Origin: Rhodospirillaceae bacterium
GTDB taxonomy: Bacteria > Pseudomonadota > Alphaproteobacteria > UBA6615
Direction: 5' to 3'
NCBI GenBank assembly: GCA_002724635.1
Contig: PBPM01000107.1
Location: 36,560 to 100,559, forward strand
Length of the DNA: 64,000 bases
A program made the translations under genes and the position numbers. Below the pieces are notes generated by a model. The model had not been told where the DNA came from, did no database searches, and saw only the letters and a list, made by a program, of their open reading frames with translations. Shown here piece by piece: positions 51,757 to 64,000 of the stretch (positions are counted from its first letter, which is position 1; every line of letters starts with the position of its first letter).

Positions 51757-52296
51757 TCAAGCGGCGGCTAGTGGCCGTGCGTCGAGAGTTTTCATGAATA
51801 AATGCGCACCGTGATAGATCGCGAGGAAGGTGCCGATCTCCATGATCTGCGCATCGGTCCAGAATTCGCGCATCTGGTCGTAGAAAATCTTATCAACTTT
51901 GTCGGGATCGAGGAAAAGCTGGTCTGCGAAGCGCAGCGCCATACGCTCAGCCTCGGTAAACAGCTCCGAATCCTCATAATCTCCGCAGCCGGCGTCGATC
52001 CGTTCCTCGGTCAAGCCCTCGGCTATCGCCCGCTTCGAGCGCAGGGCCGAGAAATACGGGTCGTCGACGAAGCGCGCGAGCTGGATGCGAATGATCTCCT
52101 TGAGCTGGTGATCGACAGTACCATTAGTGTGCAGCTCGAGCATCACGCCCAGAAGATTCCTCGCCTGGGCTGGGACTCGCGCGATGATGCGCGGGAACAG
52201 CTCATCCGGCACGCCCAGGTCGACGCACTGCGCCGTGAGATCACGGAGCGCGGGATCCTCTATATGGTCGAGTTCTAGTGGTGCGAGCCGGGACAT
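51757..52296 (-). CDS. carboxymuconolactone decarboxylase/AhpD-like protein lacking CxxC
   Basis: VDHQLKEIIRIQLARFVDDPYFSALRSKRAIAEGL aligns to the upstream selenoprotein, with DDPYF where CxxU would be. Confidence 0.85.
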   Translation of the reverse strand: MSRLAPLELDHIEDPALRDLTAQCVDLGVPDELFPRIIARVPAQARNLLGVMLELHTNGTVDHQLKEIIRIQLARFVDDPYFSALRSKRAIAEGLTEERIDAGCGDYEDSELFTEAERMALRFADQLFLDPDKVDKIFYDQMREFWTDAQIMEIGTFLAIYHGAHLFMKTLDARPLAAA

Positions 52297-52916
52297 TATT
52301 CTGCCGCCTCATCCTGAAGGGATTCCGGCCTGTCGCCGTAAATCGCCGCCGATTCCTCCTGACTCACCAAACGACCGTCCGGCGCAAACATCGGATAGAA
52401 TTTCAGCGATCCGAAGAAGGTGTGAAAGCCGAGATTGCCAACAAGGAACATCCCCAGTTCTGCGATTTCAGCTTCGCTAAGATGGGCGCGCAGATCGCTC
52501 CAGTCTTCGTCACCGAAAGAGTCCGAATCCGTGGAGACCTTCTCCACATAGCGCATAATCGCCTTCTCTTTCTCGGTGAAGACGTCGCTGCCGGCATGGT
52601 TGTTGATGCCGTCGTCGAGTAGTTTCTCGTCAAGTCCTTCCCGCTTCGCCGAAGCAGAACGAACATTGCCTCAATAACTACAATGGGCCATGCGCGACAG
52701 CATCACCCGGATGACTTCCTTGAGCTTGTGGTCGAGCGCCCCAGCGTTGAATACACTCGTCCAGAACAGATAGACCTTCTCGGCAAGGTTGACATTGTGC
52801 CCCATGACGGCATGGAAGCCGGGGTCCGGCGCGCGCAGTTCAAGGGATTTCTCGATATACGGCTTGAGCTTGGTCTTCTTCAGCTCTTCGATATCAAGCA
52901 AGGTAATATTCGGCAT
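52296..52916 (-). CDS. AhpD-like/carboxymuconolactone decarboxylase family selenoprotein (in-frame UGA = Sec at codon 82)
   Basis: ORF-track pieces 52671..52916 and 52296..52556 are in the same frame; only TGA at 52671-52673 interrupts. Read-through: LDHKLKEVIRVMLSRMAHCSYUGNVRSASAKREGLDEKLLDDGINNHAGSDVFTEKEKAIMRYVEK. selA/selB/tRNA-Sec within 12 kb. Confidence 0.9.
52634..52664 (-). promoter_or_regulatory. candidate bacterial SECIS hairpin for AhpD-like selenoprotein
   Basis: Minus strand GTTCGTTCTGCTTC-GGC-GAAGCGGGAAGGAC: 13 of 14 positions pair (three G-U), starts 6 nt after UGA. Confidence 0.75.
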
Positions 52917-52959: not shown

Positions 52960-53289
52960 TCATGCGTGTCCTTCGATCACCTTCTTCAGGACCTGACGGC
53001 GGTCGACGCCAGTGCGGGTCTCGACGACCTCGCCGTCCCTGAAGAACATCAGGGTCGGGAAGCCGCGCACGCCATAGCGCGACAGGAGGTCGAGATTCTC
53101 GTCACCGTCAACAGTGCCTATCACCACACTATCGGGCAGTTCCCCGTTCACCTGTCCGAGGATCTTCTTAAGCTGCTTGCATGGCACGCATGTCTTAGAC
53201 CAGAAATCCACCACCGTTAGCCCGTCGCGCGCCAGGACTTCTGTGTCAAAGTTGGAATTATCGAATACCGCAAGATCTTCCTGCGCCAT
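52960..53289 (-). CDS. thioredoxin-like protein with CVPC active site
   Basis: LTVVDFWSKTCVPCKQLKKIL...YGVRGFPTLMFFRDGEVV. Confidence 0.92.
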   Translation of the reverse strand: MAQEDLAVFDNSNFDTEVLARDGLTVVDFWSKTCVPCKQLKKILGQVNGELPDSVVIGTVDGDENLDLLSRYGVRGFPTLMFFRDGEVVETRTGVDRRQVLKKVIEGHA

Positions 53290-56000: not shown

Positions 56001-56112
56001 ATGACTATGCTTGGTATGGACAGTGGAGATGGCGGATCATCACAGGTGTTGGTCGGCACACGGACTATATCAGCCTTGATTGAAGGCGCCGCGAACGGAA
56101 CAATCACGCCCC

Positions 56113-57519
56113 ATGCCCGACCACGAACCCGATTTCTCAAAGATTCCGTCACTCGACCGCCTGCTGCAAGCAGCGTCGGCGATTTCGCTCGTCGAATCCC
56201 ACGGGCGTGCCGCTACAACCGCGGCGTTGCGTCGGGCCCTCGACAGAGCCCGCGCGGCCATCGCAGCCGGAGACGCGATCGACCTTTCGGAAGACGCCTT
56301 CGTGCAAACCGCGGGTGCCCACCTCGAACGGGCGGACGTACCAGGCCTGCGCCGGGTCTTCAACCTGACCGGTACCGTGCTGCATACCAATCTTGGCCGC
56401 GCACCACTCGCCGAAGACGCGATCGCGGCCATGGCCGAGGCCGCCCGCGGTGCGAGCAACTTGGAGTTCGACCTCGAGACCGGCAAGCGGGGCGACCGTG
56501 ACACACATGTAGAGGAACTGCTGCGCGAACTCACCGGTGCCGAGGCAGCAACCGTCGTCAATAACAATGCCGGCGCCGTGCTGCTACTCCTGAATGCGCT
56601 GGCGCTGCGCAAGGAGGTGCCGGTCTCGCGCGGCGAGCTGGTCGAGATCGGCGGCGCATTCCGCATTCCCGACATCATGGCACGGGCCGGTGCGAAGCTA
56701 ATCGAGGTCGGCACGACCAACCGGACCCACCACAAGGATTTCATCGAAGCCATCGGCGACAGGACAGCGCTGGTGATGAAGGTCCACACTTCGAACTACA
56801 TAGTCCAGGGCTTCACCACCGACGTGCCGGAGGCCGAACTCGCATCCATCGCCCATGGTGCGAACATTCCCTTTGTCGTCGATCTGGGAGCCGGCGCGTT
56901 GGTCGATCTCGAACGCTGGGGCCTACCGCACGAGCCGACCCCGCGTCAGACCCTCGCGGCGGGTGCCGACCTAGTCTCCTTTTCCGGCGACAAGCTGCTG
57001 GGCGGCCCCCAAGCAGGCCTAATCGTCGGTCGCGCCGACCTGATCGCTCGGCTCAAGAAAAACCCGATAAAGCGGGCCCTGCGCTGCGACAAGGCAACCC
57101 TTGCGGCGCTGGCGTCTACCCTAACCCTCTACCGCGACCCCGATCGCTTGGCCGAACGTCTACCCGCACTGCGCCTGCTGTCGCGGACGCCGGCCGACAT
57201 TCGAACGCTCGCCGAGGAACTTTGCACGACCATGGCCGCGGCTCTCAGCGAAAAATTCGCGGTCGCGGTCGAGGATTGCAGCGGTCAGATCGGCTCGGGT
57301 GCCCTACCAGTCGAGACCCTAAACAGCGCGGCGCTAGTCCTGCGCCCGCTAGCCGCACGCGGAAAGGGTGCCAGGCTGAAACGGCTCGCTGTACAGCTGC
57401 GTGGCCTGCCGGTGCCGGTCATAGGGCGCATCCATGACGATGCGCTGTGGCTCGACCTGCGATGCCTCGACGATGTTGACGACTTCCGCGCCCAAATCGA
57501 TCAGTTAACCACGCCATGA
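56113..57519 (+). CDS. selA: L-seryl-tRNA(Sec) selenium transferase
   Basis: [48 protein letters not shown] (PLP lysine). Confidence 0.97.
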
Positions 57520-59432
57520 TCATCGCCACCGCAGGCCACATCGACCACGGCAAGACGCTGCTGGTGAAATCACTCACCGGCACCAACGCGGACCGGTTGC
57601 CCGAGGAGAAGAAGCGCGGAATGACGCTCGACCTCGGCTTCGCCTACACCAATCTCGAGAACGCTACGCGGCTGGGGTTTATCGACGTGCCCGGACATGA
57701 ACGACTCGTGCACAACATGCTCGCTGGCGTGACCGGCATCGATTGCGCGTTGCTGGTGGTCGCGGCCGATGACGGACCGATGCCCCAGACCCTCGAGCAT
57801 CTTGCAATCCTCGATATTCTCGGCGTGCCCCGCGGGATAGTCGCGCTGACCAAGATCGACCGGGTCGACCCGGCGCGCGTGGCCGAGGTACAGGCGGAGA
57901 TCAAGTTGCTGATTGGGCGAACTTCCCTAGCCGACGCTCCAGTCTTTCCCGTGTCGGCAGTGACCGGCGACGGGATCGCCGATCTGCAACAGCGGGTCGC
58001 CGCGATGGCAACCGAGGCTCAGGCGCATTCCGCCACCGGACATTTCCGGCTTGCCGTCGACCGGGTCTTCACCATCGCCGGTGCGGGCCTGGTCGTTACC
58101 GGCACCGGCTTCGCCGGAACCGTCAGCCGCGAGGACCGGCTCTGGATCGCCGGTCATGACGCTCAGGCCCGGGTCCGCGGCATCCACGTCAACAACGAAG
58201 ACAGCGCGACCGGGCAGGCCGGCGACCGGCTGGCCCTGAACCTAGCCGGTCTGAACAAGGACGATATCGCGCGCGGCGACTGGCTGGTGGCCGATCCCGC
58301 TCTTACCCTCTATCGCAAGATGGATGTGCGCCTAAGGGTGGTCGCCGGCACTAAGCGGCCACTGCGCCACTGGACGCCGGTCCATGTCCATCTCGGCGCC
58401 AGCAACGTCACCGGGCGCGTCGTAATTCTAGGCGCCGACAATGCGGCCCCGGGGAGTGAAGTGCTAGCGCAACTGGTGCTCGACGCGCCCCTCGGCGCCT
58501 GCATCGGCGACCGCTTCGTAATCCGCGACCAGTCGGCGCAGATCACACTGGGCGGCGGTCACGTGGTAGATCTGCCCCCGCCGCGTCGCGGGCGCGCCAA
58601 ACCCGAGCGGCTCGACCTGCTAGCCGCGCTCGACACGCCGGACGCAAAGGCGGCGCTGACCGCCGCGCTGGCGCGGTCCCCCACGGGCCTGCGGGTGGCA
58701 GACTTCGCCGCCGCACGAAACCTCACGCAGAACGAGATAGACGCCGCGCTGGCGGCGGCGTCCGCCATGGCCGCCGGGGCGCCGCCGGGTGCGCTGGCAA
58801 TCTCCGCCAACGCTTGGGCCGCCCGGCGGGACGAGCTTCTAGAGACGCTAGATAATTTCCATACGCGCTATCCCGACCGCCTCGGGCCGGCGGCGACGCA
58901 GCTACGCAAGAGCATGGGCAGCTTCATCCCGGAGACGCTGTTCGACGCGATAGCCGCACAACTAGTCGCCGACAGCACCCTGTTCAGCGACGGCATGCTG
59001 TTGTATCGCCCCAATCATCAACCCGGCCTAACCGGCGATGACGCGAAGCGCTGGGACGCGCTGCAATTCTATCTAAACGAGACGCCAGAGAGCCCACCGG
59101 TTGTGCACGACATCGCTCAGGCTGCGGGCATGCCGGTAAACGGGGTGGGCAAGACCCTGCGTCAGGCCGTGCGCATGGGCCTCGCGGTGCAGATCGCGGA
59201 GAACCGGTTCTTCACGCCCGAGGCCCTTCGCGCCCATGCCGAGACCTTCGAGACGATGATCGCGGCGGAAGGCGAGGTCGGCGTTTCGCCGTTCCGCAAG
59301 CAGGCCGGAATCGGCCGCAACCTAGCGGTGGAAGTGCTAGAATATTTCGATAGGATCGGCCTGTCACAGCGCGACGGGAACATTCGCCGCCAGCTCCGGC
59401 CAGTACCTGAGGTGTTCGGCGCACTGGCCTAG
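57516..59432 (+). CDS. selB: selenocysteine-specific translation elongation factor
   Basis: [60 protein letters not shown]-terminal winged-helix region; overlaps selA stop. Confidence 0.97.
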
Positions 59433-63906: not shown

Positions 63907-63999
63907 GGAGGAGGACCGTTCCCCGGTGGGGCGCCCGGTCTTCAAAACCGGTGAGGGGCGTTAGACGTGCCTGGTGGGTTCGACTCCCACCCTCTTCCG
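63907..63999 (+). tRNA. selC: tRNA-Sec (anticodon TCA at 63942-63944); CCA end runs off the window
   Basis: 8-bp acceptor GGAGGAGG/CCTCTTCC, anticodon stem CCGGT-CTTCAAA-ACCGG, long variable arm, T-arm GTGGG-TTCGACT-CCCAC. Confidence 0.95.
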
Positions 64000-64000
64000 C

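Follow-up and report, generated by a model that had tools for sequence, protein, structure and literature searches.

A predicted selenocysteine-containing CMD/AhpD-like protein and its active-site-less sister in an alphaproteobacterial contig

Locus and gene content

The window, that is, the whole stretch of 64,000 nucleotides analysed here (contig PBPM01000107.1 of the Rhodospirillaceae bacterium assembly GCA_002724635.1), harbors a compact minus-strand module composed of a thioredoxin gene, a gene for a CMD/AhpD-like protein that is interrupted by an in-frame TGA (hereafter Sec-CMD) and a gene for a sister protein of the CMD fold (the partner), as well as genes of the selenocysteine (Sec) machinery on the opposite strand (Table 1). 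The initial annotation had proposed that two separately listed minus-strand open reading frames (52671-52916 and 52296-52556) in fact constitute one gene split by a single TGA, and both coordinates and sequence bear this out exactly: reading from 52916 to 52296, the TGA at 52673-52671 is the sole stop encountered until the TAA at 52298-52296. The second listed frame simply begins at an internal ATG (52556), while coding is unbroken from the TGA onward. Read-through yields a product of 206 amino acids with the motif HCSYUGNVRSASAK, and it is this fused protein that passes the Pfam CMD model (PF02627; 26.2 bits vs. a gathering cut-off of 23), whereas neither half does so alone (12.0 bits for the first half, no match for the second).

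Table 1. Features of the Sec-CMD locus and of the Sec machinery in the window.
Feature	Position	Strand	Remarks
Partner, sister CMD-fold protein	51757..52296	-	D/F in place of C79/U82; ATG start overlapping the Sec-CMD terminator (TAATG)
Sec-CMD gene	52296..52916	-	206-codon gene for a predicted CMD/AhpD-like selenoprotein; putative Sec at codon 82; terminator TAA
In-frame TGA, predicted to be read as Sec (U82 of C79-S-Y-U82)	52671..52673	-	TGA in 35/35 distinct orthologues
Apical part of bacterial SECIS hairpin	52641..52657	-	Stem GCUUC 52655-52651, loop GGC 52650-52648, stem GAAGC 52647-52643
Thioredoxin (CVPC motif)	52960..53289	-	PF00085, 2.2e-22; directly upstream of Sec-CMD, same strand
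selA (Sec synthase)	56116..57519, start approximate	+	ORF 56080-57519; sequence recognition, synteny and position beside selB; no family model scan
selB (Sec-specific elongation factor)	57516..59432	+	TIGR00475, 458.5 bits, cut-off 242.25
tRNA-Sec (selC)	63907..64000	+	Very end of contig

Conservation of the in-frame UGA

A single in-frame stop is also what a fresh nonsense mutation in one genome, or an assembly error, would produce, in which case the locus would be nothing but an ordinary CMD gene turned into a pseudogene. Searches of the host's order, of the genomes of 84,980 species and of one Burkholderiales family recovered 35 distinct orthologues from Alphaproteobacteria and Burkholderiales (51-95 % identity where compared). 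Column 82 reads TGA in each of 32 non-redundant orthologues and, after further searches, in 35 of 35; C79 and the reading frame after the TGA are likewise kept in every one of them. These sequences stem from many assemblies and, in one case (L050), from the isolate Rhodoplanes tepidamans DSM 9987. A plasmid collection gave no match. The sequence after the UGA, which had been described as coding-like, indeed evolves under purifying selection, with dN/dS values of 0.06-0.14 in same-genus comparisons, that is, far below 1. Since both the TGA and the frame following it are conserved, the pseudogene explanation is refuted, and we assign it a negligible probability.

The second residue of the CxxC-type motif, at which Sec had been placed, is accordingly TGA-encoded in all orthologues and Cys in all more distant CxxC relatives, the closest of which read CxYCGNQRS; the adjacent partner paralogues are the only homologues found with neither, and none of the homologues found ends at the UGA. 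The expectation of Cys-containing homologues aligned at this column thus holds for more distant CMD proteins, but not for the exact branch: among 385 class-level and 399 phylum-level genomes, no Cys orthologue of Sec-CMD was found, only the more distant CxxC proteins.

In a further alphaproteobacterial family, a distant CMD protein was noted that carries a TGA at the same column (L062 1501-1926, minus strand; NDCNLULSARF).

A SECIS-like hairpin under synonymous constraint

Bacterial SECIS elements are characterized by a small apical loop containing G (PMC1088965). Downstream of the Sec-CMD UGA, codon variation among 29 sequences revealed a structure of this kind. Synonymous variation is present in 72 of the 76 testable codon columns, and the four without any lie side by side (GCT TCG GCG AAG, +6 to +9 after the UGA). 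The four codons form the hairpin GCUUC-GGC-GAAGC, which starts about 14 nt downstream of the UGA and whose loop, with G as its first base, starts 20 nt after it, in agreement with the rule of a small G-containing loop just downstream of the UGA (PMC1088965). The stem is extended by the pairs 52656/52642 and 52657/52641, the former of which occurs across orthologues as U-G (11), C-G (9) or U-A (9), never as C-A. The same codons are intact in newly fetched orthologues outside the discovery alignment, and the aligned codons vary in the Cys relatives and in the partner. Minimum-energy folds of the 51-nt stretch vary among orthologues outside the apical hairpin, and that of one orthologue (L016) is different altogether. 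An Rfam scan for SECIS returned nothing relevant.

Sec machinery and co-occurrence with SelB

As had been stated initially, selA, selB and tRNA-Sec are present in the window (selA by sequence recognition and position), 3-11 kb from the Sec-CMD gene. The window ends with the contig at the tRNA-Sec gene, where a second contig (C64) overlaps by 97 exact bases and continues with a SelD-domain ORF; the sister genome G020 has tRNA-Sec, selD, the Sec gene and selB together on one contig. Within the host's order, Sec-CMD occurs in 18 of 20 SelB-positive and in none of four SelB-negative genomes (Fisher p = 0.0014). SelB was furthermore detected in 11 of the 12 other Sec-CMD hosts, the one host without a match (L057) having a genome of 2.0 Mb that is probably incomplete, its name being suggestive of a single-cell assembly. 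Sec-CMD, located near selA and selB in both Alphaproteobacteria and Burkholderiales, seems to be one of the clients of this machinery. That no Cys orthologue was found and that genomes lacking SelB also lack the gene may help explain why Sec is retained in some marine and groundwater bacteria.

Besides the SelD-domain ORF on C64, another contig of the host assembly (C88; L119 1501-2433, minus strand) encodes a SelD with an in-frame TGA of its own (HGGGUGCKVAP). C88 may represent contamination (6.15 % reported), because the relatives searched within the same order have SelD of the long-ORF type only.

Taken together, the conserved TGA column, the low dN/dS after the TGA and the presence of selA, selB and tRNA-Sec lift the original single-TGA observation far beyond chance, and we conclude with high confidence from these sequence data that UGA-82 is read as selenocysteine and that the gene encodes a selenoprotein of the CMD/AhpD fold. 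What computation alone does not reach is the identity of the inserted amino acid; conceivably, the UGA could be read through without Sec (general read-through, or Trp or Cys insertion), or two polypeptides could cooperate, as termination at the UGA would leave an 81-residue N-terminal product. Several observations speak against these scenarios, which we therefore judge very improbable. TGA terminates other local genes (partner, thioredoxin, selA and MBL) and is thus not generally reassigned here; the aligned residue elsewhere is Cys rather than Trp; the gene is missing where SelB is missing; and synonymous sites of the hairpin are conserved. Code reassignment was consequently rejected along with pseudogene and assembly error.

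The active-site-less partner

The gene following Sec-CMD had been recognized as an adjacent paralogue, and it is indeed a related CMD protein, but the earlier reading missed that it is a conserved partner in which both active-site residues are lost. The partner motif is DxxF, with D in place of C79 and F (sometimes S) in place of U82. Its AlphaFold model (pLDDT 91.5) matches AhpD-like proteins and, as best hit in Foldseek, Bmp8. The TAATG overlap recurs in most of the alphaproteobacterial family, and through it Sec-CMD and partner are translationally coupled. In one orthologous locus (L020), an adjacent partner is absent. In the phylogenetic tree, partner proteins group as sister to the Sec proteins (support 0.90), and CxxC and CxxU proteins branch outside both; loss of the redox pair following a duplication is therefore the simplest reading. 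One locus (G016/L047; L047 8001-9905) displays a tandem arrangement of Sec-CMD, partner and Sec-CMD, and hence two Sec genes.

A coupled partner devoid of an active site poses a testable structural question. Tentatively, and with the odds close to balanced, we suggest that the Sec-only AhpD-like branch may form a hetero-oligomer of a Sec subunit and a coupled DxxF sister subunit, recycled by a dedicated thioredoxin. If true, the pairing of a selenoenzyme with an almost obligatory sister subunit devoid of an active site would, within the limits of the surveyed literature, be new to the AhpD/CMD group.

Thioredoxin and the wider neighborhood

Another element of the module that the initial annotation had overlooked in the gene context is the thioredoxin encoded upstream, which is likely the reductant of Sec-CMD, although it lies immediately before the Sec gene in only 15 of the 24 named loci. 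This thioredoxin carries CVPC (CAPC in some relatives) in place of the common CGPC, and its C-terminal stretch RTGVDR[RK]QV is conserved across hosts. Further neighbors are lineage-specific, comprising SDR, HMGL-like, cupin and MFS genes in one group and LLM, EamA and xanthine-dehydrogenase-like genes in another; no substrate-specific gene is conserved beside Sec-CMD in the loci compared, and the neighbors hint at no substrate.

Predicted fold and proposed mechanism

The AlphaFold model of Sec-CMD (pLDDT 85.8) adopts an all-helical AhpD-like fold, with the AhpD-like protein PA0269 as best PDB match in Foldseek. The relay residues of PA0269, namely Glu36, Cys48, Tyr50, Cys51 and His55 (PMC3141380), correspond by spacing and alignment to E67, C79, Y81, U82 and R86, so that four relay positions are present and the His is replaced by Arg. 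As a consequence of this replacement, plain peroxidase chemistry is not assured.

The following course of events can be envisaged. SelB and tRNA-Sec would decode UGA-82 as Sec, aided by the downstream hairpin, and Cys79 and Sec82 would form a CxxU redox pair beside Glu67 and Tyr81 at the proton-relay positions of AhpD. The selenolate would then probably attack an oxidized or electrophilic substrate, either a hydroperoxide or a molecule with another leaving group as in Bmp8; Cys79 would resolve the intermediate as a Se-S bond, which the thioredoxin encoded just upstream could reduce again. The co-translated sister, having kept the fold and lost the redox pair, would probably join Sec-CMD in a mixed oligomer. 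Observed are the single gene with its conserved Sec codon, the SECIS constraint, the Sec machinery, the predicted fold and the gene module; Sec insertion itself, catalysis, substrate, the role of thioredoxin as reductant and the hetero-oligomer we infer.

Overall, Sec-CMD is most likely a thioredoxin-recycled CxxU peroxidase or reductase, and a peroxidase-type function seems the probable one. The competing idea, which we consider a serious if rather doubtful one, sees in Sec-CMD a Sec-bearing reductase of the thiol-disulfide or dehalogenase type, not a hydroperoxide peroxidase. It draws on Bmp8 topping the sequence matches to solved structures (1e-11) and also being the best fold match of the partner, and on the exchange of the relay His for Arg. 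PA0269 and other AhpD-like proteins, however, come close to Bmp8 in sequence (1.4e-11 to 1e-10) and surpass it in fold similarity to the Sec protein, and no substrate-specific neighbor gene is conserved in the loci compared.

Comparison with known systems

That AhpD-like selenoproteins exist in bacteria, as the initial annotation stated, is well documented: CxxU AhpD-like and CMD selenoproteins were described in a Sargasso Sea survey in 2005 (PMC1088965), both were abundant in GOS (PMC2398784), and both appear in later reviews (PMC9312934; PMC13188914). Given these precedents from 2005 onward, Sec-CMD is not new in kind. Curated family models, in turn, do not capture it. Against TIGR01926 (peroxidase-related enzyme), the window protein scores 45.3 bits, under the curated cut-off of 81.8; NF053654 (GroundWater_YciW, YciW-related (seleno)protein) is matched below cut-off by 29 of 29 members tested as well as by the partner, with 40.6 bits for the Sec protein and 56.3 bits for the partner vs. 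a curated cut-off of 310. We therefore regard Sec-CMD as a new member of an already known kind, on a branch that has no model, the published examples being compared by description, not by sequence. As the best NCBIfam models fall below their cut-offs, automated annotation likely calls the gene truncated or misses it in its carriers.

A second group of CMD-like Sec genes (CHYUG[LQ]MNS), likewise with a downstream hairpin, was observed in Burkholderiales (L112 1501-2031 and L116 1150-1680, both minus strand), one genome (G778) possessing two copies. With 52 bits for L112 against the NF053654 cut-off of 310, this group may be another unmodelled selenoprotein branch.

Among structurally characterized proteins, Pseudomonas aeruginosa PA0269 (AhpD-like, PDB 2o4d) shares with Sec-CMD the fold (TM 0.82 on target) and the spacing of Glu, Cys, Tyr and second Cys; it differs in having Cys51 where Sec-CMD has Sec82 and His55 where it has Arg86, at 22 % identity. 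The debrominase Bmp8 (PDB 6ohi, 6ohj) carries CxxC in the same place and hence Cys for Sec, and a brominated-pyrrole gene cluster was not seen around Sec-CMD. CMD-like selenoproteins (PF02627, CxxU) belong to the same Pfam CMD family and have the same CxxU motif, their published examples being known here by description, not by sequence. What appears to be new is the branch, which is without a curated model, for which no Cys orthologue was found and which is accompanied by an active-site-less partner, again with published examples compared by description rather than by sequence. A close parallel is the marine-metagenome AhpD-like selenoprotein (COG2128/YciW; listed under TIGR01926), likewise a CxxU protein of the CMD/AhpD type from marine bacteria with a SECIS just downstream, from which the Sec-CMD branch is set apart by the absence of any Cys orthologue found, by an often adjoining thioredoxin gene and by its coupled DxxF partner.
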